DNA of 64,000 nt, taken from NCBI RefSeq assembly GCF_000002425.4, contig NC_037271.1:11850786-11914785 (forward strand), in the 5' to 3' direction. This document shows positions 451-59,842 of this stretch, in pieces (the stretch's first letter is position 1; every line of letters begins with the position of its first letter). This stretch comes from Physcomitrium patens (Eukaryota; Streptophyta; Bryopsida; Funariales; Funariaceae). A program made the position numbers and the translations under genes. Below the pieces are notes generated by a model. It worked only from the letters and a program-made list of their open reading frames with translations, was not told where the DNA came from and did not search any database.

Positions 451-2785
451 ACGTGGATTTGAAAGGCATTCCTCCTAAAGTTTGTAAGCATCAAATTATT
501 TTGGAGGAGAATACTATATTAATTTGTCAAAGACAATATTGATTCAATCCAAAATATTTCCTTATGGTAAAAGAAGAATTAGACAAGCTTCTTGATGTGG
601 ATTTTATTTATCTAGTTTCCTATAATGAATGGATTTTATCAATTGTAATGGTAGCAAAGAAGAATGAAAAAATTTGAATTTATAATAATTTTTATAAATT
701 AAATATAGCTACTAAGAAGGATTATTTTTCTTTACCTCAAGAGATAGATAGTATCATGGATGTGGTAGCCAAGCATGAATGTTATTCTTTTTTGGATGGA
801 TTTTTGGATTACAGTGAAGTTAAAATTGCAGAAGAAAACTAGTTAAAAACTACTTTCACTATGAACTAGGAGACCTTTGCTTATAAAATTATGCCATTTG
901 GATTATATAATATCTTAGCCATATTTCAGAGGATAATAAAAAAAGTTTTTCAAGATCATTTATGACATTCAATGGAAATATTTTTAGATGATTTTTATAC
1001 ATTTAGTATAAATGCCAATCATTTGGAATATCTTGATAAGTATTTGGATTGCTGTGGCTATTATAAAATCTCTTTGAACTCAAAGAAATACCAATTTGGA
1101 GTACCATCTGGTAAATTATTGAGATACATTATTTCAATAGCTAGTATTGCTATTGACCCGGATAAAGTTACTTGTAGATTGACTTTATTAAAGCTAAAAA
1201 CAGTGTTGGATATTCATAGTTTCATCAACCATGTCAGTTATTATCACTAATTTATTCATTCATTTGCGGTCATATGTTAGTCTTTAATTAATCTCTTAAA
1301 AAACTCCATATTAGATGAGTCTAATCCAATTTGGACTGAGAAATGTACAATTGCGTTTAAAAAATTGAAACAAAAATTGGTGTGTGCACCAGTATTAATT
1401 GGACCTTGTTTGATAATACTATTTCATATTTATATTGATGCATCCAATGTTGCTATTGGATCCATATTAAGTCAAAAAGATAAAAAGAATTTTGATCATC
1501 GAATATATTATTCTACTCAATAATTGGTTGCAGTTGAATAAAATTATATTAATACTTAATGAAAAGCTTTTAGAATGATTTATTCTATTTAAAATTTTTT
1601 GCATTATTTTCTTAGTTATGCATTCATGTTTCATATCGATCATGATGCTCTTAAGTATATGGTTAATAAACCTCAATTGAGTGGATGCATTGCTTGATGG
1701 GTGTTACTACTTCAAGAATTTAACTTTGCTATCAATGTCAGATCTGAAAAGAAACATGCCAATGCGGACCACATGTCCCATTTCTCCAATATATTGGATA
1801 ATAAGCCTATCAATGATGCCCTACTTGATGTGGAATTATTTGCCGTCAATATGATTATATCCAAATATAGTGAATTGATTTAATATCTGACATTTCAAAT
1901 ATTTCTACCTACTTATAGTGAGAAACTTAAGAAATCCTTGATTTTAAAAAATGTGCCATATATGATGATTGGTGATGCCTTATATAAGCAAGGGCGGGAT
2001 GGAATTTTACACCACTGTATCTTTTAAAGTGAAATACATGCCATCTTAGAAGGCTACCATTTAGATAGTTATGGTAGACATTTTGTCAGTAATAGTATTG
2101 CTCGTAAAACTTTAATGGCTACATATTAGTGGCCAATAATATTTATGGATACATACCAATATGCCTAAATTTGTGATTTTTGTCAACAAATTGGTCGACC
2201 TATTGGAACTTATGCCATGCCATTGGTACTAATTTTGGTACAAGCACCGTTTAAAAAATGGGATATTGATTTTGTAGAATCAATTACACCAGCTTCACGT
2301 AATGGAAAAAAAAAGATTATGTAACAAAATGGACTGAGGTGACGGCAATGAAAACTGATACTATCAATATAGTAGCTATATTTTTATATGAAAATATTAA
2401 CACTCGGTTTAGTTGTCTCAAAGAATTACTTTGTAGGCTTATTGTATTGTATATAAAATGACTATCAATTCCACACCATTTCAATTGGTGTACATGCAAG
2501 AAGCAATATTACTATTTGAATTAGAAGTTCAAATTTTAAGAATTGCATTGGATAAATATCTTGGCAACAAGAAATCCCTCCAATATGAGATCGCACAATT
2601 AAAAAAATTGAATAAAATTAGGGCTATGACTCTTTTGACTATAGAAGCTATACATCATCACTGTAAGAATTATTATGATAGTAAATTATGTCCTAAATCT
2701 TTTCAATCTAATGATCTAGTGCTTATTTATGATAGTCAATTTTATAATTTTTTAGGAAAATTTCAAGTCCATTGGCATGGACCGT
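451..2785 (+). pseudogene. Decayed family B pol (RT, RNase H, integrase), copy B1
   Basis: Aligned by eye with the better copy at 37688-40231, this stretch reads through reverse transcriptase, RNase H and integrase in order, with many stops and frame changes. Recognisable parts are 'VKEELDKLL', 'CYSFLDGF', the RT catalytic box MEIFLDDF (about 973-996), an RNase H segment with 'YIDASNVAIGS', and integrase pieces near 2215-2330 and 2458-2785. The longest open pieces are only about 60-110 codons. It reads away from the S1 element on its left and is cut on its right by another S1 copy inside the integrase C-terminal 'WHGP' motif. Not functional. It is the oldest-looking of the four family B copies here. 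Confidence 0.8.
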
Positions 2786-4711
2786 TGTTGTGATGTAAAA
2801 TGGCCAATAGGTAAAAAGGTGAAGAAAATATCATAATTTTGAAGATCTTATTTCAAATATATTATAACAAATTATCTTTAAAAATTAGATAATAGTCAAG
2901 GGATAGAAAAATTAAAGGTGCTAGTATTGCCTTTTTACAAAATAGGCTTCTACTTACTTTGTAGGACCACAAATAGAGCAAAATAAGGTAGATTAGAAAA
3001 ATAAATAATATAAGCACCTTTAGAAAGAAATTAAAAGAATAATTTCTAGAAAAAATTATCTAAAAAAATTGTATATTGATACCTAAAGAGGATTGGTTAT
3101 AAACCAGGGTCAAAATCAGATCCCAAGGCACAAAATCGAGCTCCAATGATGATTTTAGGATTCTTTTGGAAATCGAAGGGTAAGATCTGTGAGTTGACTT
3201 GACAATTTTTCTATAAGTATTGACTTGGGATGATTTGAGTATGTATTAACTTTGTAAGATCTTTACAAAGTTGGGATTTGTTTTGGATGACTCTAAATTT
3301 GTAAAATAAAGTAGGTGATAATTTTTAGAAAATTTTGTAAGTTTGGCAATAGATCTGCAAGTGAAATTTTTAGAATTTTTGGATATATATGTATTTAATA
3401 TATGCTGTGAGTTTTAGCTTGATTAAAAAATTGGATCAAGGATTATTGAAGTTTGAGTGGGTCCGGGTCTTGGAAAAAAGAGTTTTAGATCTAGTAAGGA
3501 TTTCTAAGTTTTCTTGCAATCTATCAATTAGATTGGAATAAAAATTATATATATGGGTAATAGATTTATTTTACTACATATATAAAAAATTTGAAATCAA
3601 TTGAATAGTTCAATAAGGAGATATTGAGGCTGGAAATTCAACATTCAAATTGAAGAAGGAAGCCAGCCAACATCCAAGCAAATATTAGGATTGATCTTCT
3701 TTTTGGTGAATTCGATCTTCTTTAAAAATTTTGTACTTCTAATCAACTTAATCATGAAGAGGTGTGCAAAATTTGAGTTAAAATCAATGGTTCATTCATT
3801 ACTTATTGAAGTTTAAATCTACTATATGAATTATTTGGATTATTTAGGATTTGATTAGAATATGTTTTGGATTTAATTAGGATTTGATTAAGGTTTGTTT
3901 AGGTTTGTTTAGGACTTGGTTAGGATTTTTTAGGATTTGACTAGGATTTGATTAAGATTTGTTTAGGATTTGACTAAAATATATTTAAGATTGATTAGAG
4001 TTTGGTTAGGATTTCACTAAGGTTTGGTTAGGATTTGGTTAGAATTTGATTAGGATTTGGTTAGGATTTGGTTAGGATTTGATTAAGTTTTTTTTAGGAT
4101 TTGATTAGAATTTGGTCATGATTTGTTTAAGAATTGACTAGGATTTAATGAAAGTTTATTTAGGATTTGATTAGAGTTTGATTAGGATTTATTAGGGTTT
4201 GACTAAGATTTGGTTAGAATTTGTTTAGGATTTGTTTAGGATTTATTTAAGATTGATTAAGATTTGATTAGGATTTGATTAGGAATTGATTAGGATTTGA
4301 TTGAGGTTTGATTAGAATTTGATTAGAATTTGGTTAGGATTTGACTAAGTTTTATTTAGAATTTAGATAGGATTTGATTAGGATTTATTTAAGATTTCTA
4401 TTTTAATATTTTATTAATATTTCTATTTTAGTATTTTATTAATATTTCTATTTTAATTTTATTTTTAAATTCCTATGTTATTTCTTTATGATTTCTTTAA
4501 AAGATCTTTATGAATACTTTGTGTTTCTTATATAATTCCTTTGTAATTTTGAATGAATTTGATTGATATTTGAATTATATTTGTTAATCTTTAATTGTAA
4601 TTTTTTTAAGAATCTATTAGAATTTATAGGACTTGTTGTTGCAATTTTTCTTTTAATTTCCACAGCTAGGTGTCCAGTGCATTCTCAAGCCAAATGCCAC
4701 ATAATACAACA
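2786..4711 (-). mobile_element. S1 solo-LTR-like element, copy b
   Basis: A 1.9 kb insertion in the integrase tail of B1. It starts TGTTGTGATG and ends ATACAACA, and is flanked on both sides by CCGT (2782-2785 and 4712-4715). Removing the insert and one CCGT rejoins the integrase motif. It is the reverse complement of the S1 copy at 23633-25342, with the same outer ends and the same repeat-rich middle. The inner end (reverse strand) begins like family A LTRs, with a related 'TTGAGAATGC' block. No ORF of note. I infer a solo LTR because no second LTR or internal region is present. Confidence 0.75.
3830..4395. repeat. Degenerate TTTAGGATTTGGTTAGGA-type tandem repeat
   Basis: About 560 bp of imperfect short repeats built from 'ggatttgatta', 'ggatttggtta' and 'tttaggatttg' units, with no constant period. 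The units resemble degenerate plant telomere repeat (TTTAGGG), but exact TTTAGGG units are rare. It sits in the middle of S1 copy b; the equivalent array appears on the other strand in S1 copy c. Confidence 0.7.
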
Positions 4712-5510: not shown

Positions 5511-6283
5511 TGTGATTGTCGTTTTACTTATTCTGCAATTCTTTCCAGAATAAACCTATATAAGAAAATTCAAACACATGGAAAGACATTGCATGAATTT
5601 TACTTATTAGGATCACACAATTAACTGTATTCCAAACCACTAAAATACTAAAAAATACTACAATGCTTCCTCCCAGTAACAATACTCCTCCATCAATTGA
5701 TAACCATAATATGCAACCCTGCACTCTCAAAAGATGGCTCAAACCTCAATAAATTCCATCCAACACCAGGAATAATAGACTTCACTCCAATCAAACTGAA
5801 TTCACAGAATTCTTGTAATCACAGACTTCCTCTATCGAAACACACACACAACTCTCAATAAACAACAATCATAATCTTCCATCCATAATCAATCTTCCAA
5901 TAACTTCTCATATAATTCAATCACTCAGTACTCTAATTACAAAATCAATAACTCATAAATCAATCTCTGATTTATTCCACAGACTCACTTCTCAGTATTC
6001 AAAAACTATCTATTATTCTTCAACAACAAAGAAAACAAAAGAAACAAAGAAGAAGCACCAAGCTTAACCCCGACTCATGACTATCACAGTCTGGCATTTT
6101 CTTCCTCTCTCCCATCCTCCTTATACTACCCTGAGATACCAACTCCTATACTATGGATAATAACTACTTTTCCTGACTATTCATCCATTCTACCTGTTGA
6201 ACCACCATTTCAGTAGTTATCTATCTTTGTTTACACTATACACTAGATATCTATATTTTAAAAATAACTACTTATTCTACATA
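5511..6283 (-). repeat. 3' LTR of B2
   Basis: 773 bp, TGTAGAATAAGTAG... at its start (6283, minus strand) to ...ACAATCACA at its end (5511). It matches the LTRs of B3 (31931-32706) and the partner LTR at 26176-26955. Its outer flank is GTGAG. Confidence 0.85.
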
Positions 6284-6298
6284 GCTCCACTCCTAATT
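6284..6298 (-). promoter_or_regulatory. Polypurine tract of B2
   Basis: On the minus strand the sequence just before the 3' LTR reads AATTAGGAGTGGAGCTA, the position and composition expected for the plus-strand primer. B3 (42298-42316) and B1 (29722-29737) have the equivalent tract. Confidence 0.65.
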
Positions 6299-6329
6299 GT
6301 GCACCGTCTCTGTAAACACAATATTGATA

Positions 6330-8031
6330 AACAAAAATCAATCATTTTATTTTTTTTATTTTTATTTTTATTTTTTTTTAAACTGGATTGTTCAATCTCT
6401 TCAATTTTTGACGTTGACTCCATTTGGTCTCGTTCTAATACTATTTCTTCCACTGACTCATCTTGAATCTCTACCCTTAATTGAGCTATTAAATCTTCAT
6501 TATACGCTCTCAATTTTCAAACCTGAGCTTCCAATTGGAGTATTCTAGCATCTTTAGCTTCTAATTATTGCTGCTGCTGTTGCAATTTCTCCTCCAATTT
6601 TCCAATTCTTACTCCCATTGAGGCAGATGTCTGTGACTGACCAATATTGACCAAATCACTTTTCAATTTCATTACTGTTTCCTTCAAAACAATAATTTTT
6701 GTCTGTAGCTCATCCGTTTTATTTCGATATTGATCATCCAATTATTTCTTTTCAAGCTCCAATGCCTCCTTCTCTCGTTTCATCTTCAACTGAGTATTTA
6801 TCTTTTCATGTTTCAATCTATATGATTTGTGAATTTGTAATAATTCTTGCCTTTGATTTTTCAGGATATGCTGAATTCTCTGTTTCTCCTTTGACCAGTT
6901 TTCCACTCTCTCATCCAATTCACGCTTCACTCGCATCTTGGATTTTGATTCTACCTTGATGACTTATTTTTGTTCCTTGATTTTATAATTTTGCTCCAAT
7001 ATTATTTTCTTGCTCGCTTCCACGTGCCTTATTAAGCTACCCTCATCTTTGAGCTTACTCACCATAAGTTGCAGCTGAAAAATTTGACCCAATATAACTT
7101 TTTTAAGATTCCACCCTTCTGTTACACCCTATTGAAATCCTAATTGGTTGCTTTTCCTTGGAACTGGTATTGATATCATCATCTCTATTGTCGATCGAAT
7201 TGAAATTCACTCCGGTGTAGATATTGGTCTTGCTTTCCATTCTGCCGCTCTGCTGGATTCTCCCACTTCATACACCATTACCCCTAGACTAACTGTTTCC
7301 ATTTGTAAACTTAGAACTACTGGTTGACATTACTGTTTCAATGTATACTCTATCACTGAGTTTACATAATTGGAACATAATAGTGAAGCAAACTTCCCCG
7401 TCTTCCGCTTAGCTCTCATTTCAGCATGTATCCTTGTGGCCACATAAGTTGCCCAATTGAATACCATGCCTTTTAGTGTTCATATCGTGGAAAATAATAA
7501 TCACTTTGCCATGTAGGTGGTATACCAATTCAATGCTAATCACTTCTGAACAAATCACATCCATTCTATAAGTTTGGGCGTAAGTGCCTCCTGTACCTTC
7601 CATCCTTGATTTTGCTCGAGAGATGACATTCTTCCTTTGAAGTAGCTTCTTGGCCTTAAATCATTTGACGCATCTCCTCCCACCTCAAGCTCTCTGGTTG
7701 GTAAATACAAGATCTTGTGTAAGATATTCTCATCTATCCCAATCAAGATTCTTCTTATCACACTCAAACCATCCTTTGGATCATAATTTTTTATATATTC
7801 CATCGCTCGTTCTACATCAATTGGTGGTAGTTTAACCGATCCTCGCAAAATCATAAATAACTGTGCATTTCTAAAATCTTTTTGTCTTTTCAATGACCAA
7901 CAGATATCTAACTTCATCGGTTCCATGTTGGTGATAATTACAAGAGACGGCGATCCCAGATCCCACTTAGATCTTTTATTGCGACGACTTTCTGATTATT
8001 TCGGTACTCTCTTCGCTCTTTCTATCAACAT
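6330..8031 (-). pseudogene. ORF3 (post-integrase ORF) of B2, broken
   Basis: Matches ORF3 of B3 (40639-42222) along its length but with stops and frame changes. The N-terminal part (7926-7555) reads 'MEPMKLDICWS', 'PPIDVERAMEYI', 'SYFKGRMSSLEQNQGW'. The C-terminal part (6936-6742 and 6513-6400) is a charged coiled coil, for example 'REKEALELEKK', ending near 'YNEDLIAQLR', which matches 'LNEDLMARLN' in B3. It lies between integrase and the polypurine tract, as the env-like ORF does in Athila elements, but I see no signal peptide or membrane segment. Function unknown. Confidence 0.72.
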
Positions 8032-8339
8032 TGTGAAATCAAACTCTCAATACTTCCTCATGCTAACACTATTGCTGATTACTGTCGAAAAGCTTACAGT
8101 TCAAAGCACAATGTCTGAAATTTACAACAATGAAACCTTCTATGAGTGCCCCGCTCCTAAGTGCTTACTCGGGATCTAAATCAAGAATGTCTAAGCTAAT
8201 GTACTTTAATCTCACGTCTAATCAAGAATGTCTAATTTCTTGACTAATCAGTTTCAATATCCAAAACTAACCATCAATCGTTTCCTAGCTATCATAACCT
8301 TTCCAATCCTATCGAGTAATCATTATTACGGAGACTTCC

Positions 8340-8814
8340 TTCCGCCACTGAGTAAACCTGTCCCGAGTTTACGTATAATATAGACGTAATCGATTCCCAT
8401 TAATGCATGTTGTGATGTGGATTCCCAGAAAATCTTTTAATTAAATTGAACCATTAGGGAAAACTTCCACCACCCGATATGGCCCATGCCATCGTACTTG
8501 CAATTTACTAAAAAAGTTGTTAAAGCCGCTATCATAAAGTAGTACCAAATCATTGGGCATAAAATATTTTAGCTGTAACTTACTGTCATAATAACTCTTT
8601 CTGCAGCACTGTGTAGCTTTCATGATCAAGAAAGCCGTAGTCCTAGCTTCATCCAATTTCTCCAATTGGACTAACCTATATTGAAGAGATTTTTGTCTCC
8701 CATACATTCATCCAACGTAATTCGTAAACTTTGGACCTCCAATTCAATTGGTAGAATTACCTCTTGACCATATACGAATTGAAATGGGATAGAATTGATA
8801 GTTACTTTATACGC
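8340..8814 (-). pseudogene. Family B integrase C-terminal part, copy B2
   Basis: Minus-strand continuation of the integrase that stops at 18505. 8707-8441 is open and reads 'KSLQYRLVQLEKLDEARTTA', 'SYYDSKL', 'FMPNDLVLLYDS' and 'RWHGPYRVVEVFPNGSI', the linker and C-terminal DNA-binding part of a gypsy integrase. Bases 8811-8814 (ACGC on the plus strand) are one copy of the target duplication of A1; the other is ATGC at 18505-18508. Confidence 0.78.
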
Positions 8815-9005
8815 TGTTGTATTACGTGCTTTCTTGCTCGAGAACGCGCTGGGCGTCTGGCTGTAGAAGGTAGCATGGAGATTCGCTAATAATCAAGCAG
8901 TCTATCGGTTTTTGACTGTTGGAATATAAACAATTGCAAGAATACATCGTAAATCTATACGAATATCCTTCGACTACTCACCAAAGTCCTTTTTACCTCA
9001 GCCAG
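8815..9005 (-). repeat. 3' LTR of A1, distal end
   Basis: The last 190 or so bases of the A1 3' LTR (minus strand), from TGTTGTATTACG at 8815 up to the point where fragment A6 begins. It aligns with 17237-17425 of the 5' LTR. The rest of this LTR continues at 10357-11359; about 80 bp of LTR between the two parts is missing. Confidence 0.7.
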
Positions 9006-10356
9006 TGTCGTATTACGTGCTTTCCTGCTCGAGAACGTGCCGGGCGTCTGGCTGTAAAAGGTAGTATGGAGATTCACCGATAGTCAAGCAGTCTATCAGT
9101 TTTTGACTGCTGGAATATAAACGACTGCAACAATGTACCATAAATCTATACGGGTGCTCTTCGACTGCTTGTCGAAGTCCTTTTTGCCCCAGCCGGTAGG
9201 TCTCTAGACGTTACAGAGAACCCCGTACAACCCAAACTGTTAACCTTCAATACTGCTTTATACTTACGATCTTGTATCCACTGACTGTCTTGTTAGATTA
9301 ACCCAATAAATTTCATTCACTCCGCATACTCAATCCTATAGACACCCTTTTAATCCTTCAATCACAGACGTAACTTGATTTCACAAAACAATCAAGAGTA
9401 TTCAAACCCACTTCATTTAAAAATCCCGATTCACCATTACAACACTGACTTCAGCAGCGATTGCCTCAGTCTTCCCCAAAACTCTACGAAGAAGAAAAAT
9501 CCAAATCCTATGTCTTTCCTTCCCCGACCCGAAGCATGAAGCTCCTCTCTCTAATTCCCTTGATCTTCAAAAACCTCCCATCCCCCATAAAAACCCACAC
9601 CACTCCAAAACTATATCCCCCCTAACCTTATCCTCTGAATTTCTTCAATCTTCCGTCTTAGATCCGGAATTGGCCCCCACCTCAAGCTTGGATCCGAAAT
9701 TGGCTCTCGCCGCCAAGCTTTCTCCTCCGTTTTTACCTTTAAGAAATCTATTTACCGAAAACAACGTTCCCTGAGACGGCACAGAGAACAGGACAGCCTG
9801 AAACAGAATCGAACCCCGTAATCGGGACCACATTGAGTCGCCCGACCAATTCAGGTCCTATATTGGGAAGGATGCCCGTAGTAACCTGGATGTTCCCGTA
9901 ATTGGGTCCAATTGGTCCTCGCGTCAGATTGGCTAAGACCCGTAGTAAGACCTGGATTTCTCGTAACTAGACTGCATTGGGTTGTCCCACCAATACAGGT
10001 CTCATATTGGGTAAGAGGACCCGGATTGAATTATCGAAATTGGATCCAATTGGCTCCTCAAACCCATCGTGTGAATTGGTCCTTCTCTTCCTGCTGACTC
10101 CCGTTATTGGAATCGAATGGGGCATTCCAGTATGCCCCGGCTGACTGTAACGGAGTCACTGAACCTGACCACTCAGTATTTGTACTAGAGTTGGTCAATG
10201 CTCCCAATATTCGAGGTAACTAAATATTAATAAAATTCCCCTTTCTTTTTATTTTCACTGTATACTCGTGTTTCAACACGACATCCACCCCCTCTGAACC
10301 TGTGCATCCTCCGGTATGCACCAATTTACCCAATTGCTGTTTAATTCAGAACATAT
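9006..10356 (-). mobile_element. Family A fragment A6: full LTR plus a short internal end, inserted in the A1 3' LTR
   Basis: 9006-10283 is a complete family A LTR (TGTCGTATTACG...CAACACGACA). It is followed by the polypurine tract (10284-10298) and about 60 bp of the integrase-end region, then by a jump back into A1 LTR sequence at about 10357. The flank on the LTR side is CCAG (9002-9005) at a place where other LTR copies read CCGG. The other flank is lost. Probably a second insertion that later lost its 5' part by deletion. Confidence 0.65.
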
Positions 10357-11359
10357 CCTGTATCCACTGACTGTCTCGTTAGATTAACTCAATAAATTTC
10401 ATTTACTACGCATACTCAATCCTATAGACACCCTTTTAATTCTTCAATCACAGACGTAACTCGATTTCACAAAACAGTCAAGAGTAATCACATCTACTTC
10501 ATTAAAAATCTTGATTCACCATTACAACACTGACTTCAGCAACGATTGCCTCAGTCTTCCCAAAACCTTATGAAGAAAAAAAAACCCCAAATCTCTGTCT
10601 TTTTTTCCCACCTCGAAGCATGAAGCTAGCTCTCCGATCCTTCTCAAAAAACTTATTCTCCCGCCTTCATTTCTTAACCTATCCTCCCCTTTAATCCTAA
10701 TTCTCTCTTCTTTTAAACCCTAGCTTTTGAATTTCTTCATTCTTCCGTTTTGGATCCAGAATTGGCTCCGCCGTTAGAATTCTCTCATTCGTTTTTACCT
10801 TTAAGAGATCCTTTTACCGAAAACAACGTTCCCTGAAACGGCACATAGAATAGGATAGCCTGAAACAGAATCGAAATCCCGTAATTGGGACTACATTGAA
10901 TCGCCCGACCAATTCACGTCTCATATTGGCTAAGAGGCCCGTAGTAAGACCTGGATGTTCCCGTACTTGGGTCAAATCGGTCCTTTGCGTTAGATTGGCT
11001 AAGTGGCCTGTAGTAAGACCTAGATGTTCTCGTAATTGGACCGCATTGGGTTGCCCGACCAAGTCAGGTCTCATATTGGGTAAGACTTAGATTGGATGTC
11101 TTGAAATTGGATCTAATTGGCTCTTCGAACCAGGTTCACCTGTTGTTGAATTGGTCCTTTCTCTTTCTGTTGACTCACGTTATTGGAATCGAATGGAGCA
11201 TTTCAGTATGTCCCGGCTGACTGTAACGGGGTAACTGACCCTGGCCTCTTAGTATTTGTATTGAAATTGGTCGTTGCTCCTAATATTCGAGGTAACTGAA
11301 CATTAATAAAAGTTCCCTTTCTTTATATTTTTTCGATATACTTGTGTTACAACACGACA
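10357..11359 (-). repeat. 3' LTR of A1, proximal part
   Basis: Begins at 11359 (minus strand) with TGTCGTGTTGTAACAC and runs to about 10357, aligning with 17505-18504 of the 5' LTR. The first bases form a 5-bp stem (GTGTT/AACAC) next to the terminal TGTC. Confidence 0.75.
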
Positions 11360-11375
11360 TCCACCCCCTCTGAAC
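11360..11375 (-). promoter_or_regulatory. Polypurine tract of A1
   Basis: The minus strand reads CAGAGGGGGTGGA directly before the LTR start TGTCG. The same tract precedes the 3' LTRs of A2 (48842-48857), A3 (54089-54105), A4 (58086-58098) and fragment A6. Confidence 0.75.
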
Positions 11376-11421
11376 CTGTGCATCCTCCGGTATGCACAAA
11401 TTTACCCAATTGCTGTTTGAT

Positions 11422-12702
11422 TTAGAATATATTCTCTACATCTTTACCTAGTTCGTCTTCGTCACCTTCATTATCCAAATCACTTTCATCTTCTTTCGGC
11501 GGAATCTCTGTACCTTCATTAAGGTCTTCCATATTCATCTCCGCGTGTCTTCGTTTAAATATTTTTACTCGCTTTCCTGTAATTGGTATTTTCAATTTTG
11601 TACCATCTAACTCTCGTAATGAGTAAGTCGCATTATCATAAATAGTTGTTACTACATATGGTCCAAACCAACATTTTAAAAATTTCCACAAAGTACTATG
11701 TTGATTATCCAGACTATTGTCATAAACAAGTACCCAGTCACCTTCCTTGATTGCTTTAGGTCTCAATCGATGTTGCTTATCGAATCGCGCCTTCTTTTGT
11801 AACCTTGCTCTTTTTAACCTTTCCAATGCTATCTGCATATCTTCCGATCTTTGCTCCAATTGTCGAATCCTAATAGCGAGAAGTTCTTCTCTTGTCAATC
11901 TATCTTCCCATGGTAGCATACTCCAAGTAAATACCTTTTCTTCAATCGGCATAATTAATTTACGACCTGTCATAAGTTCTATTGGCATATATCCTATCAC
12001 CAAACTATGTGTTGTTCGATCAGCCCATAATGCAAATGACAGCCGTGGCCACTCTTTAACTTTCCAATTACAAGCTTTAACTAATGCATTCATAATCGAT
12101 GGGTGACCATGTTCGCTTTTTGTATTCCCTTCTTGATTATAAGTAGTAGTCAATGATAGTTTAACTCCACATCTTTCAAAGAACTTACGAGCTTCTTGTG
12201 CATTTAATTCTCCATGATCTGCAGTGATTTTTCCTATGCATCCGTAGCGGGAAATGACATCTTCAAGCAAAAACCTACAAATCTCCTCTGTAGATTTTGT
12301 CCTCAATGCTCTTCCTTCTACTTGATTTGATAAATCTTCACGAGCTAAGATCAAATATCTCATCTGCCATAATTCAACTGGCATAATAACCAAATCAACA
12401 ACCCATTTAAAATGAATAGCCAGAAGATACGTAGGATGAAGACCATCTCGATGTCCGATATTAGAATACGATTGACAGATTTCACATGACTCTACAAATG
12501 AGAGCACATCTCGATACATATTTTTCCACCAATATCGTTCTTTGAGTTTAGCAAAAGTAGTCCAGATTCTTCTATGCCGTGCCCATAAACTATCATGAAA
12601 CTCCTTTAATAATTTTAGTTTTTCTTCCTTATTGCCTATCACTCGTTGTGGCATCCCAATTCCTTTCTTCGGTCTCTTCCATAAGAATCCATCTCGAAAC
12701 AA
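11422..12702 (-). CDS. Integrase of family A (A1)
   Basis: A 426-codon open frame. It contains an HHCC zinc-binding part with histidines in 'HDSLWARHRRIW' and cysteines in 'CEICQ', then the catalytic core with Asp in 'WVVDLVIMP', Asp in 'ITADHGEL' and Glu in 'NTKSEHGHP', spaced 34 residues from the second Asp. A C-terminal 'GDWVLVYD' and 'WFGPYVV' segment follows. The tail after about residue 385 is strongly acidic and has no chromodomain. In sequence style it resembles integrases of basidiomycete gypsy elements. The frame is shifted relative to RNase H at a run of eight A, a shift shared with A2, so the integrase is cut off from the rest of pol. Confidence 0.85.
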   Translation of the reverse strand: MFRDGFLWKRPKKGIGMPQRVIGNKEEKLKLLKEFHDSLWARHRRIWTTFAKLKERYWWKNMYRDVLSFVESCEICQSYSNIGHRDGLHPTYLLAIHFKWVVDLVIMPVELWQMRYLILAREDLSNQVEGRALRTKSTEEICRFLLEDVISRYGCIGKITADHGELNAQEARKFFERCGVKLSLTTTYNQEGNTKSEHGHPSIMNALVKACNWKVKEWPRLSFALWADRTTHSLVIGYMPIELMTGRKLIMPIEEKVFTWSMLPWEDRLTREELLAIRIRQLEQRSEDMQIALERLKRARLQKKARFDKQHRLRPKAIKEGDWVLVYDNSLDNQHSTLWKFLKCWFGPYVVTTIYDNATYSLRELDGTKLKIPITGKRVKIFKRRHAEMNMEDLNEGTEIPPKEDESDLDNEGDEDELGKDVENIF

Positions 12703-14818: not shown

Positions 14819-14895
14819 AATACCAATAAAACTCGCATCAAAGGCACATTAATCTCGCGAGAGTATCTCCTCTTTTGTACCTCCATAATCTCGCT

Positions 14896-48903: not shown

Positions 48904-51442
48904 TCATAATATGTTCTCCAAATCTTCGTCTAGTCCATCTCCACCGTCTTTGCTATCCAAATCAATTTCATCTTCCCACTGCAGAATATCTATGTCTTCA
49001 TTTAGGTCTTCTATATTTATTTCTGCATATCTTTGTTTAAACAATTTCAATCTCTTCCCTGCAATTGGTATTTTTAATCTTGTGCCATCTAACTCCCGCA
49101 ATGAATAAGTCGCATTATCATGAACAGTTGTTGCCACAAACGGTGTCGTATTATAAATGCTTACAGTATGTAAAAATTAGTTAAAACATATTATATGTTA
49201 ATAAATCTAAATGTGTGTTAAAGTGATTAATAGATTAAATTAAAAAGAATTTTTTTAAAAAAAACTTTATTTTATTTTCCTTACTTAGTTTGATTATAAT
49301 ATATAAAAGTTATAGAACCTTAATGTTAAGTATGAAGCCTTGAGAGGAGATAGGGGCCTAAAGATGAAGATTTAAACTAATAGGAGGTTAATTGGGAGGG
49401 ATGAAACCAAGGCATGGTTGGATGAAGGTAGAAATAAGGATCTTCATCCCCATTGGTCGAAATCCATGCCCAATGGGCTTTTAGGAGGCTGCCCGCGACC
49501 TTGATAAGAGTTTCGGCGACTTCAAAGAGGCCATTAGGAAATCGGAGGCAAGGATTGTAAAGTTTAGGGTTTTGGCTACAATTTTTGTGCAAATTTTATA
49601 GGGTTTGGAGTTAGGGTGAATAAGTTATAGCCGTTTGAAGTTAAGGTGTCAATTTGAGACCTACTGTTACTCTTTTGAGTTTAAGAGGAGTCTTACGGAA
49701 GCTTTTGGAGATCGGAAGGTGCGGCTGAAAGGGCAACTTTAAGACATACATCTTTTACGAAGAAAATTTTGCATTTGGAGTTTATGTAAAGGAGGTATAG
49801 GGAGTTAAAGACAGCGCATTCAAATCAAAGGCAGTAAGTAAGCGGTTTTGTTCAAAGTAGTGTTAGGAGCCATAACTTGAGTTTTCGAACGAAATTTTGG
49901 TTCAAACTTTGAAAGAATGTAAAAATTTGTGTTAAAAAGCTATCTATATAAGTTTCGTGGCATTTGGACTTATGGATTGTGAGATATGAAGAAAATTACG
50001 CGTGGGTATATAAAGATTAGGGTTTGAAGCGGCTGTTAGGGTTTTGAAGATATCTCAAGATCCGCAAAGAATTTGCGGATAAAATTTGTTGTACAAATTA
50101 ATAACAACATATCAGTACTTCATGTAAATTTTGATCTTGTTTGGACGGTTGGATCAAGAGTTATGAGGTGTTGAGGTTCGGGAGAATTTCCACACAAGGA
50201 TATACAAGGTTTTAGAGTACTTCTACCATATTTTGGGTGTTGTTGGTTATTTAAGACTTAAGTATTTGGTGTAATTGTCAAAAGGAGAACTTATATATAT
50301 AAAATTAGGATTTCCTTATTTTAAGCTTGATTGAGCAATTAGTGATAGCCAGAAGCCCAGCGCTTTCTTGAGGCAAAACCTCTTTTTCCCAACAACGGTC
50401 CAAACCAATGTTTTGAAAACTTCCGTAAAGTGCTATATTGGTTGTCCAGACTACTATTATAAACAAGTACCCAATCACCTTCTTCAATTACTTTAGGTCT
50501 CAATCGATGTTGCTTATCAAATCACGCCTTGTTTTGTATCCTTGCTCTTTTTAACCTTTCTAATGCTATCTGCATATCTTCCGATCTTTGCTCCAATTGT
50601 CGAATCCTAATAGCCAGAAGTTCTTCTCTTGTCAATCCATCTTTCCATGGTAGCATACTCCAAGTAAGTACCCTTTCTTCAATCGGCATAATTGGTTTTC
50701 AATCTGTCATAAGTTCTACTCGCAAATATCCTATCACTGAATTATATGTTGTTTGATCAGCCCATAATGCAAATGACAAAAGTCGTGGCCACTCTCTAAC
50801 TTTCCCATTACAAGCTTTAACTAATGCTTTCACAATCGCTGGGTGACCACATTTGCTTTTTGCATTCCCTTTTGGATTATAAGCAGTAGTCAGTGATAGT
50901 TTAACTCTACATCTTTTAAAGAATTTACGAGCTTCTTGTGCATTTAATTCTCCATGATCTGCAGTGATTTTTCCTATGCATCCGTAGCGGGAAATGACAT
51001 CTTCAAGCAAAAACCTACAAATCTCCTCTGTAGATTTTGTCCTCAATGCTCTTCCTTCTACTTGATTTGATAAATCTTCACGAGCTAAGATCAAATATCT
51101 CATCTGCCATAATTCAACTGGCATAATAACCAAATCAACAACCCATTTAAAATGAATAGCCAGAAGATACGTAGGATGAAGACCATCTCGATGTCCGATA
51201 TTAGAATACGATTGACAGATTTCACATGACTCTACAAATGAGAGCACATCTCGATACATATTTTTCCACCAATATCGTTCTTTGAGTTTAGCAAAAGTAG
51301 TCCAGATTCTTCTATGCCGTGCCCATAAACTATCATGAAACTCCTTTAATAATTTTAGTTTTTCTTCCTTATTGCCTATCACTCGTTGTGGCATCCCAAT
51401 TCCTTTCTTCGGTCTCTTCCATAAGAATCCATCTCGAAACAA
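48904..51442 (-). pseudogene. Integrase of A2, split by S2 copy b
   Basis: Two parts, 51442-50395 and 49143-48904, with S2 (49144-50394) between. The first is open for 247 codons and nearly identical to A1 over the zinc domain and first half of the core ('HDSLWARHRRIW', 'CEICQ', 'ITADHGEL'). The catalytic Glu has become Lys ('NAKSKCGHP'; Glu in A1). The second part ends in the acidic tail, which is shorter than in A1. Codon and base identity with A1 is high between about 50930 and 51630 and falls outside it. Confidence 0.8.
49144..50394 (+). mobile_element. S2 solo-LTR-like element, copy b
   Basis: 1,251 bp, TGTCGTATTATAAATG...TTCCCAACA, flanked by ACGG on both sides (49140-49143, 50395-50398) and splitting the A2 integrase. 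Matches 27001-28271 end to end. Only one LTR-like unit is present; no ORFs of note. Confidence 0.8.
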
Positions 51443-52979: not shown

Positions 52980-54088
52980 TGTCGTATTACGTGCTTTCCT
53001 ACTCGAGAATGCACTGGGCGTCTGGCTGTAGAAGGTAGTATGGAGATTTGCTAATATTCAAGCAGTCTATTGGTTTTTGACTATTGGAATATAAATGATT
53101 GTAAGATTATACCTTAAATCTATACGGATGTCCTTCGACTGCTCGCCAAAATCTTTTTTGTCCCAGTCGGTAGGTTTCTAGACATTACAGAGAACCCCGA
53201 ACAATCCAATCTGCTAATCTCCAATAACGCTTTATACTCACGATCTTGTATCCACTGACTGACTGGTTAGATTAATCCAAAAATTTTCATTCACTCCGCA
53301 TACTCAATCCGATAGACACCTTTTTAATTCTTCAATCATAGACGTAATTTTAATTTTACGAAACAGTCAAGAGTAATCACACCCACTTCATTAAAATCCC
53401 GATTCATCAGTACAATACATCGACCTCTCAGCATTGATCGCTAGAAGTCCTTTTTCTGACCCCTACCCAAAAACCTTGTATCCTCCCTTCTTCTTAACCT
53501 CCCTAATTTCCGAATCTCTGAATCCTCTCCTCCACCCTAACCATTTCCGAATGTTTTTTTTCTTTCCTCTCAAATCCTAGCCTCTGAATTTCTTTAATCT
53601 TTCGTCTTGAATCCGGAATTGGCTCTGCCGTCAGAGCTTTCTCCTCTATTTTTTATCTTTTAAAAGGTTCTTTTTCCAGAAACAACGTTCCCTAAAATAG
53701 CACAGAGAACAGGACAGCCTGAAACGGAATTGAAACCCCCGTAATCAAGACCACATTGAGTCGCCTGACCAAATCAAGTCTCATATTAGCTAAGAGGCCC
53801 GTAGTAAGACCTGGATGTTCCTGTAATTGGGTCAAATTGGTCCTTCGCATCAGGCTCGCTTAGTCATCGATTTAGTCCTTTTAATTCTGTTGACTCCCAC
53901 TATTGGACTCGAACGGAGCATTTCGTTACTGGTAAGTGTGCCTTGACCGACTGTGATGGAGTATCTGAACTGGCCCCTGAATATTGGCATTGGAATCGGT
54001 CGTTGCTCCCAATATTCGAGGTAACTGAATATTAATAAAAGTCCCCTTTCTTTATATTTTCATGGTATACTCGTCTTACAACACGACA
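52980..54088 (-). repeat. 3' LTR of family A copy A3
   Basis: 1,109 bp, from TGTCGTGTTGTAAGACG at 54088 (minus) to GTAATACGACA at 52980. Polypurine tract 54089-54105 lies on its internal side. Confidence 0.78.
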
Positions 54089-54231: not shown

Positions 54232-55434
54232 TGTCGTGTTGTAACACGAGTATGCCGTGAAAATATAAAGAAAGGGGACTTTTATTAATATTCAGTTACC
54301 TCGAATATTGGGAGCAACGACCAATTCTAGTGCAAATACTGAGAGGCCAGGTTCAGTCACCCCATTACAGTCAGCCGGGGCATACTGAAATGCTCCATTC
54401 GATTCCAATAACGGAAGTCAGCAGGAAGGGAAAGGACCAATTCAACGATGGATGAGCCTCGTTCGAAGAGCCAATTAGATCCAATTTCAAGACATCCAAT
54501 CTAGATCGTCTTACCCAATATGAGACTTGACTTGGTCAAGAAACCCAATGCGGTCCAATTGCGGGAATATCCAGGTCTTACTATAGGCCTCTTATCTAAT
54601 ATGAGACCTGAATTAGTCGGGCGACTCAATGTTGTCCCGATTACGGGGCTCCGATTCCGTTTCAAGGTGTTCCGTCCTTTGTGCCATTCGAGGAACGTCC
54701 TTTCGGTAAAAGGATCTCTTAAATGTAAAAACAAACGAGAAAGCTCTGACGGCGGAGCCAATTCCGGATCCAAGACGAAAGATTGAAGAAATTCAGAGGC
54801 TAGGGTTTGAAGGAGGAGAGAATTAGGGTTAAAGAGGAGGATAGGTTAAGAAATGGAGGAGGAGAGAATAAGATTTTGGGAGAGAAGGATCAAAGAGCTA
54901 GCTTCATACTTCGGGAAGGAGAAAAAAGACAGAGAATTGGATTTTTTTTCTTCATAGGGTTTTGGGAAGACTGAGACAATCGTTGCTGAAGTCAGTGTTT
55001 TAATGGTGAATCAAGATTTTTAATGAAGTGGGTTTGATTACTCTTGACTGTTTTGTGAAATTGAAGTTACGTCTGTGATTGAAGAATTAAAAAGGTGTCC
55101 ATAGGATTGAGTATGCGGAGTGAATGAAATTTATTGGGTTAATCTAACAAGACAGTCAGTGGATACAAGATCGTGACTATAAAGTCGTATCAAAGATTAG
55201 TAGTTTGGATTGTTCAGGGTTCTCTATAACGTCTAAAGACCTACCGACTGGGGCAAAAAGGACTTCAGTGAGCAATCAAAGGGCATCCGTATCGATTTAC
55301 AATGTATTCTTACAGTTGTTTATATTCCAACAGTCAAAAACAGATAGATTGCTTGAATATTAGCGAATCTCCATACTACCTTCTACAGCCAGACGTCCAG
55401 CACGTTCTCGAGCAAGAAAGTACGTAATATGACA
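54232..55434 (+). repeat. 5' LTR of A4
   Basis: 1,203 bp, TGTCGTGTTGTAACACGAG...GTACGTAATATGACA. Matches 58099-59270 and the A1 LTRs in reverse orientation. The first 16 bases contain a GTGTT/AACAC stem. Confidence 0.85.
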
Positions 55435-55440
55435 AAAAAG

Positions 55441-55458
55441 TGGTGAACTCGACTTGAA
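55441..55458 (+). promoter_or_regulatory. Primer binding site of A4
   Basis: TGGTGAACTCGACTTGAA, six bases after the LTR. A decayed version of the tRNA-Trp-like site of A1 (17214-17232). Confidence 0.6.
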
Positions 55459-55507
55459 AGCTTGAGGTGGAAGGTATTGGATTTCGTTTGGTTTTATTTT
55501 TACTTTT

Positions 55508-56878
55508 ATGGAAAATGAAAATAAAAATTTTGAAGGATCTTTGGGAGGAGTTTCTGGTGGGGGTTCTTCTAAAGGACAAGGTATGCACATGGATCCGTCT
55601 ATTGCTAGTATGTTTCAAGCCTTCTCATTATCAATGCAGCAATAGCAAAGCAATGATCGAAAGGAAGCTTTGGAAACCAAAGCATTGCAAGCAATGGTCA
55701 ATAAAATTGATCAATTTGATGGAACGAATATTTCAAGGTATTTAAGATGTTATGTTCGTGAAATGGAATTAAATCGGGTTTTTGAGAAGAAAATGGTTGA
55801 ATTATTTTGACTTGCCACGATACCGGAGATAAGACACCATATTACATTGATTACGGATCGTTATGGGAATTCATGGGAGGTTTTTTCACATGCATTGAAA
55901 GACGAATATTTCTTAGAAGATGCTGATCGCGTTACTAAGAAGCTATTTCTCGAATGGATTGAACGGCCAAATAAGAATTTGCAAGCAATAGAGCTACTAA
56001 GGGAATTTGAGAGGCAGGACTCTCAATTATCGAAGGTAGAAAAATTGACATTTGAGCCGAACAAAGTTGATCTATTTCTTCAAGCTGCTGATGGAGAATT
56101 GCAAGGGAAATTAGAACTCCTTCTTGAAAATAAAGAAGAAGATGAAGGATTGACAACAAAGTAGAAGAACATTGAAGATGCGGTGGGGTTGCTTACAAAA
56201 AGAGAAAAGAGGAAGGATAGGAGTAATATTCCAAAAACAGTACAAGCACCCAAAGCTCCAGTATGTACAACACCACCAACAATGCCTACAGTTCAACCTT
56301 CGACATCCTTATCAAAGAAAGTAGATATGACAATGGAAGAAATTATATGAAGAATGCAAGATCTTCAAATCAAATTAGCAAGACTTGAAGAGAATACTTC
56401 TACAAACAATTTGAAGAATGTTTGAAAACAAGGATATGTACAAAGATGCATTTGGTGTGATGACACTTCACACACTAGGAAAGATTGCAATGAATTTAAT
56501 AATATGATACGGCAAGGAATTATTTGCTAGAAAGATGGAAAGATAGCATTAAAAGATAGGGAGGATCTTCTTGAAACCAATTTTGGTAAGGGAAGAATGA
56601 GAGCATTAGTTCAAGATTACTTAAAAGTGCATGAAACAATAGCACGAGAAAGTGCAAGTTATGGTGCTAGAGTAGATGATGACCTTGGTGAAAGTACGGA
56701 AACTAGTGAGTTTTGGACTTCTGTCATTTCTACAATGCAAGAAGGGAAATTACCTCGAGAAGCGTTATTGAAGACTGCAGCTACAATACAAGGTGCAATA
56801 CTAGAGAAGGAAATTCTTCTAAGAGATAAACTCGAGGAGACAAGGCTCGGGAGGCAGCTTCACATGAATTGCCTGTAA
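55508..56878 (+). pseudogene. Gag of A4
   Basis: One frame from ATG 55508 ('MENENKNFEG') to TAA 56876-56878, with about six in-frame stops. Open pieces are 55847-56164 and 56597-56878. The zinc knuckle CIWCDDTSHTRKDC lies at about 56449-56490. Stops in 'VELF*LATIPEI' and 'IIC*KDGK' are identical to those in A1. The last 10 bases overlap the protease ORF in the -1 frame. Confidence 0.78.
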
Positions 56879-57777
56879 AGGATACCTCAGCATCATTGGG
56901 AGAAAAAACAAAGGAGACAAAAGATAAGGGCAAATCAATTACTTATAAGCTACTTTCTGACATTGAAGCGGCAACAAATTTGAAAGGGGTGTTGGAAGAA
57001 CGTATATTAAATGCTAAGGTGGAATTCACATTGAAAGAAGTCTTGGAAATTACAAAGAAGGAGTTTCATGATGTTATCATTGACAGCATTAAGCGAAAGA
57101 GGCAATTAATGGGCGAAATTGGAATGAGTTATGCTATTGATGCAAGAATATATAAAGATGAAGAAGAGGTTGATATTGATTACAAGCAACCAATAAATGA
57201 AAAGAATGGGTATAATCAACGAGTACATTTTGAAGATTATAGTGATAAGGAAATGGAAACTTTGAGCCATTATACTCGAAAGCATTGGGCAAGGGCAACT
57301 ACTAAGATATTGGTGAAAGTAGGAGATATAGAAGAACCAATTGTTGCTTTAGTCGACCATGGTTCTGAAATAAATCTCATGTCTAAAGATCTTTATAAGA
57401 AGCAAAAATGGCCAATTGATATGGAACATGGATGGGCAATACAAGCAGCTAATAATACACAGGGCAAATTATATGGAGCTTGTCCAGATGTCAAAATTCG
57501 GATTGGAGATGTTGCGACGGAGCAACATTTCTTTGTTCAAGATACAACGTCTTATCCGTTGATTTTAGGACAACCTTATATTATGGCAACACGGATGGAA
57601 ACAAAAGTACTTGACAATGGTTCTGCTTATGCAAGGATACGTAGCAAAGATGGGAGGAAAGTTGTACAATTTCTAACAGTACCTCCTAACCATGAACGGA
57701 ATCGAGATAGGTTGAGGGAGAAACCATTGCCAAAGATTGTTGAAAGATTTAAGGATTTTGGGGAGGTACCACTGTAA
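56869..57777 (+). CDS. Aspartic protease of A4 (pro frame)
   Basis: 302 open codons, in the -1 frame relative to gag (the -1 frame is open from about 56834). The active site is LVDHGSEINLMS at about 57350-57385, with a second motif 'PLILGQPYIM'. It ends in 'FGEVPL' and TAA, the same place as in A1 and A3. The next -1 frame, open from before 57771, continues as the pol linker. It is the best-preserved coding region of family A here, which fits recent mobility of this derivative. Confidence 0.85.
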   Translation: MPVKDTSASLGEKTKETKDKGKSITYKLLSDIEAATNLKGVLEERILNAKVEFTLKEVLEITKKEFHDVIIDSIKRKRQLMGEIGMSYAIDARIYKDEEEVDIDYKQPINEKNGYNQRVHFEDYSDKEMETLSHYTRKHWARATTKILVKVGDIEEPIVALVDHGSEINLMSKDLYKKQKWPIDMEHGWAIQAANNTQGKLYGACPDVKIRIGDVATEQHFFVQDTTSYPLILGQPYIMATRMETKVLDNGSAYARIRSKDGRKVVQFLTVPPNHERNRDRLREKPLPKIVERFKDFGEVPL

Positions 57778-58036
57778 AGCGAGATTATGGAGGTACAAAA
57801 GAGGAGGTACTCTCACGAGATGAAGGTGCCTTTGATGCGATTTTTATTGGTATTTTAGAGAATGGAGATATTATGTATAAGAAAGTTGATGATTTTAAAA
57901 GAAAAGAAAAAAAAAGAGATTATATGATATTGAAGGAGAATTATGCAAGTTAGGTACGCAGCAAGAAGATGAAAGTGATTTGGATAATGAAGGTGACGAA
58001 GACAAACTGGATAAAGACGTAGAAAATATATTCTAA
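57771..58036 (+). pseudogene. Pol stub of A4: start of RT linker joined to integrase tail
   Basis: 'VKRDYGGTKEEVLSRDEGAF' and 'IMYKKVDDFKRKE' match the start of the A1 pol frame. A run of nine A near 57907-57915 shifts the frame. After 'CKLGT' the sequence jumps to the acidic integrase tail 'QEDESDLDNEGDEDKLDKD' and ends at TAA 58034-58036. No catalytic domain remains. Confidence 0.78.
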
Positions 58037-58085
58037 ATTAAACAGTAATTGGGTAAATTGGTGCATACCGGAGGATGCAAAGGTT

Positions 58086-58098
58086 CAGAGGGGGTGGA
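58086..58098 (+). promoter_or_regulatory. Polypurine tract of A4
   Basis: CAGAGGGGGTGGA, directly followed by the LTR start TGTCG. Confidence 0.78.
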
Positions 58099-59270
58099 TG
58101 TCGTATTGTAACACAAGTATACCGTGAAAATATAAAGAAAGGGGACTTTTATTAATGTTCAGTTACCTCAAATATTGGGAGCAACGACAAACCCCAGTGT
58201 AAATACTGAGAGGCCAGGGTCAGTCACCCCGTTACGGTTAGTCGGGGCATACTGAAATGCTCCGTTCGATTCCAATAATGAGAGTCAGCAAAAAAAGAAA
58301 GGACCAATTCAACGACGGGTGAACTTGGTTTGAAGAGTCAATTGAATCCAATTTCAAGACATCCAATCTAGGTCCTATTATGGGCCTCTTAGTCAATCTG
58401 ACGCGAAGGATCAATTTGACCCAATTATGGGAACATCCAAGTCTTACTACAGGCCTCTTAGCCAATATGAGACTCGAATTGGTCGAGCGGCTTAATGTGG
58501 TCCCGATTATGGGGGTTCCGATTTAGTTTCTCGCTGTTCCGTCCTTTGTGCTGTTCCGAGAACGTCCTTTCGATAAAAGGATCTCTTAAAAGTAAAAATG
58601 GAGGAGAAAGCTCTGACGGCTGTCAATTCCAGATCAAAGATGGAAGATTGAAGAAATTCAGAGGCTAGGATTTGAGAGAGGGAAGAATTAGGATTAAAGG
58701 AGAGAGAATAGGTTTTGTTGAAGGATCAGAGAGCTAGCTTCATGCTTCGAGGCGGGGAAAAAAGACAGAGATTTGGGATTTTTTTTCTTCATAGGGTTTT
58801 GGGAAGACTGAGGCAATCGTTGCTGAAGTCAGTGTTGTAATAGTGAATCGAGATTTTTAATGAAGTGGGTGTGATTACTCTTGGCTATTTTGTGAAATCG
58901 AAGTTACGTCTGTGATTGAAGAATTAAAAGGGTGTCTATAGGATTGAGTATGCGCAGTGAATGAAATTTATTGGGTTAATCTAACAAGACAATCAGTGGA
59001 TACAAGATCGTGAGTATAAAGCGATATCAAAGATTAGCAGTTTGGGTTATTCAGGGTTCTCTGTAACGTCTAGAGACCACCGACTAGGACAAAAAGGACT
59101 TCGGCGAGCAGTCGAAGGACATCTGTATAGATTTACGGTGTATTCTTACAGTTGTTTATATTCCAACAGTCAAAAACCGATAGACCGCTTGAATATTGGC
59201 AAATCTTCATACTACCTTCTACACCCAGATGCCCGACATGTTCTTAAGTAGGAAAGCACGTAATACAACA
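58099..59270 (+). repeat. 3' LTR of A4
   Basis: 1,172 bp, TGTCGTATTGTAACACAAG...CACGTAATACAACA. Differs from the 5' LTR at many positions and by small indels, so this insertion is not very recent. Confidence 0.85.
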
Positions 59271-59842
59271 GCATACCTAACTTGCATAATTCTCCTTCAA
59301 TATAATATAATCTTTTTCTTTCTTTTCTTTTAAAATCATCAACTTTCTTATATATAATATTCCATTCTCTAAAATACCAATAAAACTTGTATCAAAGGCA
59401 CCTTCATCTCGCAAGAGTACCTCTTCTTTTGTACCTCCATAATCTCGCTTTATAGTGGTACCTCCCCAAAATCCTTAAGTCCTTCAACTATCTTTGGCAA
59501 TGGTTTCTCCCTCAACCTATCTCGATTCCATTCATGGTTAGGAGGTACTATTAGAAATTGTACAACTTTCCTCCCATCTTTGCTACGTACCCTTGCATAA
59601 GCAAAACCATCGTCAAGTACTTTTGTTTCCATTCGTGTTGTCGTAATATAAGGTTTTCCTAAAATCAATGGATAAGACGTTGTATCTTGAACAAAAAAAT
59701 GTTGCTCCGTTGCAACATCCCCAATCCGAATTTTGACATGTGGACAAGCTCCATATAATTCGCCCCGTGTGTTATTAGCTGCTCATATTGTCCATCCATG
59801 TTCCATATCAATTGGCCATTTGTGCTTCTTATAAAGATCATT
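59271..59842 (-). pseudogene. Protease and pol start of A3
   Basis: Minus strand: 59668-59450 is open and matches the protease end ('MILGKPYITTTRMETKVLDD'), with the family stop after 'FGEVPL'. 59449-59271 matches the pol linker down to 'CKLG', where A4 is inserted. It is broken off at about 59842 in the middle of protease, next to S3-like sequence; the rest of A3 (gag, 5' LTR) is missing. Confidence 0.75.

Follow-up and report, generated by a model that had tools for sequence, protein, structure and literature searches.

What decides where the LTR retrotransposons of the moss Physcomitrium patens insert? The question is raised by a 64,000-nt stretch of its genome (the window), in which the initial annotation had reported 4-bp target duplications centred on CpG (N-CG-N) around the elements of family A and around LTRs of two further types, S1 and S2. 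Its list mixed exact and decayed cases, as would be expected if the pattern came from chance or from the selection of suitable examples. We called 29 LTR termini in the window without looking at their flanks. One was discarded as spurious (6238), seven inner junctions next to the PBS or PPT were separated, and 21 outer junctions were kept. The adjacent 4-mer has a central CG at 14 of the 21 outer junctions against a background of 2.05% (P = 2e-19), and at none of the seven inner junctions. At each of 14 other offsets, CG is found at one outer junction at most. Counted by hand per insertion event, CG is present in at least one flank for 10 of 13. The CpG-centred duplications are thus real: the flank-blind scan of the window agrees with that of a genome sample described below, which refutes chance or selection and leaves it a negligible probability.

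Four of the seven insertions with two readable flanks have identical N-CG-N on both sides (strands are given where assigned): a solo S1 LTR at 2786..4711 (CCGT at 2782-2785 and 4712-4715), a second one at 23633..25341 (ACGC at 23629-23632 and 25342-25345), a solo family A LTR on the minus strand at 36420..37687 (ACGT at 36416-36419 and 37688-37691) and a solo S2 LTR at 49144..50394 (ACGG at 49140-49143 and 50395-50398). The other three pairs, which had been counted as N-CG-N or close to it, are not identical. These flank a minus-strand family A element at 8815..18504 (ACGC at 8811-8814, ATGC at 18505-18508), a solo S2 LTR at 27001..28271 (CAAG at 26997-27000, CTAG at 28272-28275) and a plus-strand family A element at 54232..59270 (ACGT at 54228-54231, GCAT at 59271-59274). 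Single outer flanks are readable on the right of an S1-type LTR end truncated by the window edge (1..450; ACGT at 451-454) and of an LTR fragment (59841..59990; ACGA at 59991-59994), and on the left of three minus-strand family A or A-type LTRs: one nested in another A LTR (9006..10283; CCAG at 9002-9005), one at 47507..48841 (ACGC at 47503-47506) and one at 52980..54088 (GCGG at 52976-52979). The flank positions given in the initial annotation, including the uninterrupted junctions at 41017 and 57956, hold apart from two: the right ACGC of the second S1 LTR starts at 25342 and not 25343, and ACGA at 59991 and not 60001. The proposal that two independent inserts (ending at 450, and 36420-37687) share one host site was partly supported only and was set aside; the host copy at 451 apparently misses four bases right after ACGT.

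Family B served as a control. A minus-strand element with nested inserts (5511..26955) lies between exact copies of GTGAG (5506-5510 and 26956-26960), and a plus-strand element (31931..43092) between GTACC (31926-31930) and GTATC (43093-43097), where GTACC had been given for both sides. Both duplications are of 5 bp without CG, as had been claimed.

The genome-wide check of flanks proposed with the initial annotation was run on a sample. One exact 20-mer from the LTR end, searched against the genome of the window itself (470,438,890 bases in 101 contigs), has 5,806 matches, making family A very abundant; the sample comprises 100 listed ends, in order along part of one contig. The excess of central CG is present: the centre is CG in 93 of 107 distinct outer flanks, CA in seven, TG in five and another dinucleotide in two, and inner junctions have no CG (0/79). 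Among full-length copies, 9 of 12 have identical 4-bp duplications, every one N-CG-N, and a 5-bp duplication fits none. The core is narrower than the N-CG-N originally described: the symmetric (A/C)CG(G/T), or M-CG-K, accounts for 64 of the 93 CG-centred flanks, compared with 333 of 1313 in the background. A pyrimidine-purine (YR) step occupies the centre of 105 of the 107 flanks, and integrases with a 4-bp stagger favour YR (PMC4422553), so that the bendability of DNA might be all that is selected, with any YR step sufficing. However, with 5194 occurrences in the window against 1313 of CG, TA is the most frequent YR step there, and yet it is the centre of none of the 107 flanks; this makes selection of bendability alone very unlikely.

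Paralogous copies of the host sequence reveal the state before insertion. All seven inserts tested lie within repeats of which the window has further, paralogous copies, and the empty sites contain the target 4-mer once. This demonstrates that the flanks are true 4-bp target duplications. Five of 13 empty-site paralogues have the central CG. The site of the solo A LTR at 36420 reads ACGT when empty, and that of the S2 LTR at 49144 reads ATGG. For the three mismatched pairs, the empty sites (ACGC, ACGT and ATAC for 8811/18505; CCAA and CCGG for 26997/28272, in alignments of just 65-67% identity; GCGT and ATGT for 54228/59271) indicate that N-CG-N was likely the original sequence. The three events without CG in a flank (27001, 9006 and 45014) have N-CG-N in one of two, six of six and three of three paralogous empty sites, respectively. 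The paralogues of the latter two were aligned by eye: the six LTR paralogues of the 9006 event read CCGG, TCGG or CCGA, while those of 45014..46349, a solo LTR without a clean duplication that was absent from the original list, read TCGA, TCGA and ACGC. The centre is neither CG, CA nor TG in two of the 13 empty-site paralogues (TCCT and ATAC) or in the paralogue of 52976 (GCTG). Many LTR ends themselves contain CG (TGTCGT...ACGACA), and the flanking CG could in principle be supplied by the element ends or arise after insertion. Yet the outer bases differ among copies while the two sides agree in those 9 of 12 pairs, and the presence of CG in empty sites refutes this explanation, to which we give almost no credence.

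Comparison of paralogous repeats in the window shows that the pooled rate at which CG is matched by TG or CA (0.42) is about double that at which any other C is matched by T (0.19); in a repeat pair of 96% identity the rates are 0.36 and 0.07. Judging from this decay of CpG, the targeted repeats are probably methylated, and the TG and CA centres would be explained by the same process. The element might read methylated CpG, as the initial annotation had suggested, or be delivered by a reader of methyl-CpG or heterochromatin, with targeting following methylation and not the bare sequence; the location of all tested inserts in repeats with so high a CpG transition rate is in favour of this. On the other hand, the symmetric M-CG-K motif, with T and A avoided at its edges, looks like an ordinary sequence preference of an integrase, and family A has no chromodomain. 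We consider such methylation-guided targeting improbable. The same low probability applies to its specific form, in which the integrase recognises methylated CpG and sends copies into silenced, CpG-methylated repeats, where methylation decay then erases the used targets. The decay fits methylated targets, whether or not methylation is read.

The rule is common to several LTR families with shared ends, and the claim of a CpG-centred palindromic target that sets them apart from family B stands. For S1, the centres of 39 left flanks include 8 CG, 14 TG and 10 CA, with no CG (0/39) at each of 10 other offsets, and those of 24 right flanks are CG (5), TG (6), CA (5), AT (4), TA (3) and CC (1). The identical two-sided duplications in this S1 count are all centred on TG or CA (5/5), so insertion of S1 into TG or CA sites is possible. 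The evidence for S2 consists of two inserts. The S1, S2 and 45014 LTRs have no internal region assigned within the window; S1 and S2 are presumably served by the same kind of integrase as family A.

The coding capacity of family A was examined in the element at 8815..18504. Its internal region measures ∼5.9 kb, and five minus-strand ORFs occupy the larger part of 11422-16862; as in Phygy, the element is short and coding nearly throughout its internal part. The copy is broken and its RVT_1 and rve matches are under the Pfam cut-off, but RT, RH and INT are covered by BLAST to intact relatives, in the Ty3/gypsy order. The integrase ORF (11422..12720, minus strand) has a predicted zinc-binding domain, rve core and SH3-like C-terminus, and ends ∼60 bp short of the 3' LTR, which ends at 11359. 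It matches the integrases of Ty3 (E 6e-9) and PFV (E 4e-7) in sequence; the fold match to both is at a TM of about 0.3, from a weak model (pLDDT 69, pTM 0.43) in which contact residues are not assignable. No Chromo model matches family A at E ≤ 10. Family A is therefore a Ty3/gypsy element without a chromodomain, and membership in the chromoviruses, such as Tcn1 or RLG1 of P. patens (PMC7466625), was rejected. Against the traits of OTA, Tat and Athila (an extra RH in Tat, extra ORFs, mostly 5-bp duplications), family A has one RH region seen and duplications of 4 bp, duplication length being a weak criterion for classification according to Neumann et al. 2019 (PMC6317226). Relatives named among the matches listed in three protein searches (best 120 of 147, 120 of 312 and 120 of 205) come from Riccia, Ceratopteris and Adiantum, with one more that bears the label of the bacterium Bosea; none is named as P. 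patens, and the majority of the listed matches carry no species name. No relatives were found in viral contigs. Seven contigs from two cyanobacterial MAGs (L001-L007) resemble family A and were taken as plant contamination; they carry no readable target duplication, and the only long direct repeat, in L002, is interrupted by contig ends.

By its features rather than by a tree, family A is most probably Phygy, a non-chromovirus gypsy clade of P. patens (Physcomitrella patens in the sources). Both are short non-chromovirus gypsy elements of a moss host with a preference for NCGN and mostly 4-bp duplications. The preference was described by Neumann et al. 2019 (PMC6317226), and the predominance of 4-bp duplications, GC-rich at their centre, by Jedlicka et al. 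2019 (PMC6911290). From these statements the core fact is already known. Our additions are the refined motif, the proof from empty sites and the rule common to several LTR families; the M-CG-K core and a rule shared with S1/S2-type LTRs are not part of these statements on Phygy, with which the comparison is one of features and not of sequences. Jedlicka et al. observed no excess of palindromes around Phygy sites (285 elements, 5.3 vs 5.3, p 0.94), in a test aimed at palindromes longer than the 4-bp core. The abundance of family A (5,806 matching ends) is hard to square with those 285 elements (PMC6911290).

The integrases of PFV, MoMLV, PERV and XMRV are related to that of family A and resemble it in their 4-bp stagger, favoured central YR and avoidance of T first and A last, but their preference is far weaker (YR averages 63% over random) and their centre is not restricted to CG (PMC4422553). 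Drosophila gypsy-superfamily elements likewise combine a 4-bp duplication with a palindromic motif, which is TATA or ATAT instead of a CG-centred one (PMC3276498). Rice Tos17, also a plant LTR element with a palindromic target consensus, is a copia element with a 5-bp duplication and no CpG centre (cited in PMC6911290).

Taken with the observed 4-bp duplications, CG centre and M-CG-K preference of family A, the comparison favours a non-chromovirus Ty3/gypsy integrase of Phygy type that very probably chooses palindromic (A/C)CG(G/T). The integrase would join both cDNA ends with a 4-bp stagger over the palindrome, and repair would then yield the 4-bp N-CG-N duplication. The centre would be a flexible pyrimidine-purine step, as with other 4-bp-stagger integrases, narrowed to CG presumably through base contacts of the integrase, and old copies would have lost CG through CpG decay. 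The choice of target would be made by the integrase itself.

Strong sequence choice by an integrase is unusual among plant LTR retrotransposons, Phygy being the exception among the lineages treated by Neumann et al. (PMC6317226). A CpG-centred target links integration to the very dinucleotide at which DNA is methylated. Whether methylation is a guide or a coincidence could thus be put to a direct test in this genetically tractable moss, where the thousands of matching LTR ends would allow very large statistics. If methylated CpG were read, this would be a retrotransposon landing on the silencing mark of its host, with no chromodomain needed.

The window is a nest of LTR retrotransposons (64 kb, 36% G+C, CpG observed/expected 0.64). 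The initial annotation proposed that the Ty3/gypsy family A and two further LTR families, S1 and S2, insert at N-CG-N, leaving 4-bp target duplications centred on CpG. When the listed flanks were re-read, every tetramer was as described; two coordinates were corrected, one ACGC lying at 25342 and the ACGA at 59991 instead of 60001. LTR ends were located blind to their flanks, using 30-base family termini and a threshold of 21/30 matches over the whole window, which gave 29 termini. Terminus 6238, inside an LTR of the second gypsy family, B, was discarded as spurious, and seven of the 29 were excluded as inner junctions beside the primer-binding site or polypurine tract; CG occurs in none of these seven. 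The 4-mer adjacent to the LTR has a central CG in 14 of the 21 outer (host-side) flanks, while each of the remaining 14 offsets has at most one CG (background 2.05%, P = 2e-19). With each of 13 events taken once, a hand count gives 10 with CG (P = 4e-15). The local CG density is unchanged within 300 bases around the sites (127/6195). The proposed CG excess at the flank centre is thus well above chance.

The seven two-sided inserts sit within other repeats, so uninterrupted paralogues are present in the window. We joined about 150 bases from each side of an insert and aligned the product to the window. Each empty paralogue holds the target site once: CCAT, CCAT and TCCT for insert 2786; ACGC, ACGT and ATAC for 8815; ACAC for 23633; CCAA and CCGG for 27001; ACGT for 36420; ATGG for 49144; GCGT and ATGT for 54232. 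One extra match for insert 49144 is its own right flank and stands outside these 13 paralogues, whose centres are CG in five, CA or TG in six and other in two (TCCT, ATAC). The position of insert 9006, flanked by CCAG, reads CCGG, TCGG or CCGA in six LTR copies, one of them the inserted LTR itself. An insert missing from the initial list (45014-46349) is without a clean duplication; aligned by eye, its position in three paralogues reads TCGA, TCGA and ACGC. The paralogue of 52976 reads GCTG and gives no help to the N-CG-N reading. In separate copies of a single host element, an S1-type LTR (451) and an A-type LTR (36416-37691) sit at one ACGT, or at positions very close to it; the host copy at 451 seems to be four bases short directly after this site.

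A search of the genome (470,438,890 bases, 101 contigs) with a 20-base family A LTR end, allowing no more than two mismatches, returned 5,806 matches; the reversed 20-mer had no match. We sampled 100 listed places, all exact and in order along one contig, at 1.5 kb each. Sorting by an automatic rule, which told host-side flanks from inner junctions, yielded 110 outer flanks, of which 107 remained once three duplicates were removed; the start was unreadable in 11 LTRs. Their centres are CG in 93, CA in 7, TG in 5, AG in 1 and CC in 1, so that the genomic copies in this sample do carry the central CG excess. CG occurs 0 to 5 times at each of 12 other offsets, and in 0 of 79 inner junctions. The commonest tetramers are ACGT (25), CCGG (15), CCGT (13) and ACGG (11), with at most six of any other. 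The form (A/C)CG(G/T), or M-CG-K, accounts for 64 of the 93 CG-centred flanks versus 333 of 1313 CpGs in the window, which alone served as background (P = 2e-18). Nine of 12 full-length copies (LTR identity 0.933-0.993) have identical 4-bp duplications, all N-CG-N; the other three pairs are GCGT/GCAT, GCAT/GCGC and CCGT/CCGC, and a 5-bp duplication fits none of the 12. Exact duplications flank 4 of 14 solo LTRs, and two of these 4 represent a single site that was itself copied.

According to passages of PMC4422553, retroviral integrases whose stagger is 4 bp favour a flexible central YR step and avoid T first and A last. Judged by these passages, family A has the same edge preferences, but its centre is narrowed to CG: TA is the most frequent YR step in the window, yet it is found at none of the 107 flank centres. 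Most likely, targets would be chosen through sharp DNA bending at the centre together with base contacts that we infer for a symmetric integrase pair.

Family A ORFs encode RT, RNase H and integrase domains. In a broken copy the RVT_1 and rve matches fall under the Pfam cut-off, and BLAST alignment to intact relatives spans all three domains. The 432-aa integrase ORF contains a zinc-binding domain and an rve core; no chromodomain was found in it at E up to 10. By sequence, its PDB matches include Ty3 integrase (E 6e-9) and PFV integrase (E 4e-7); a structure search with a weak model (pLDDT 69) placed PFV first and Ty3 second, at TM about 0.3. Among the matches listed, the top protein is an unnamed entry; the nearest relatives that bear a name belong to a liverwort, Riccia (71% over 403 residues), ahead of those of two ferns, Adiantum (62% over 126) and Ceratopteris (51% over 280). 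Passages of PMC7466625 ascribe a chromodomain to the abundant moss family RLG1, whereas family A, also very abundant by its count of LTR ends, lacks one. At 9006-11438, two A LTR copies with adjoining internal sequence lie in register (9269-10362 and 10355-11438; spacing 1086 bases, 80% identical), as if nesting had been followed by recombination. Family A's integrase group is also encoded on six contigs (L001-L003, L005-L007) from the MAG of a cyanobacterium (Trichormus, ERR2144891); these contigs probably come from contaminating DNA of its plant host, which may be Azolla.

Family B (31931-43092; 5511-26955) is a different gypsy element. Of the 5-bp duplications attributed to it, GTGAG/GTGAG, around 5511-26955, is exact and the pair around 31931-43092 reads GTACC/GTATC. 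The copy at 31931-43092 has a PBS-like TGACGCCGCTGCCGGGGA and two ORFs beyond integrase (40513-41574 and 41575-42222). These features and the 5-bp duplication give family B the look of an OTA-type gypsy; the OTA account, in passages of Neumann et al. 2019 (PMC6317226), names no moss.

For the older family S1, 39 of 41 genome places were used, with the copy in the window itself and a weak, partial match set aside. Left-flank centres, a few of which may be inner junctions, are CG in 8, TG in 14, CA in 10, TA in 3 and other in 4, and CG is found in 0 of 39 at every one of 10 other offsets. The 24 readable right flanks have CG in 5, TG in 6, CA in 5, AT in 4, TA in 3 and CC in 1. The TG and CA centres fit decayed N-CG-N sites. 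S1 may also have inserted directly into TG or CA sites; the five identical 4-bp pairs are each TG- or CA-centred. The S1 LTR also contains an array of 11-base period (3857-4430).

Decay of CpG was measured in nine paralogous pairs, where CG stands opposite TG or CA in 206 of 486 comparisons (0.42) versus 907 of 4801 (0.19) for other C opposite T; the 96% pair alone gives 0.36 versus 0.07. Judged by this difference in transition rate, the target repeats are probably CpG-methylated.

Among the 20 papers listed of 52 that contain NCGN, none deals with these elements. Phygy is described as a non-chromovirus gypsy clade of Physcomitrella patens, with a preference for NCGN insertion sites, in passages of Neumann et al. 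2019 (PMC6317226). In passages of Jedlicka et al. 2019 (PMC6911290), its commonest duplication is 4 bp, 4-bp duplications are GC-rich at the centre, and a palindrome excess around Phygy sites was not found. It is thus highly probable that the CpG-centred insertion seen here in raw sequence is the Phygy preference already in print. As far as the published passages go, our analysis adds the proof from empty sites, a target core narrowed to M-CG-K, the measured decay and the extension of one rule to A, S1 and S2 as three separate LTR families, the last from two inserts.
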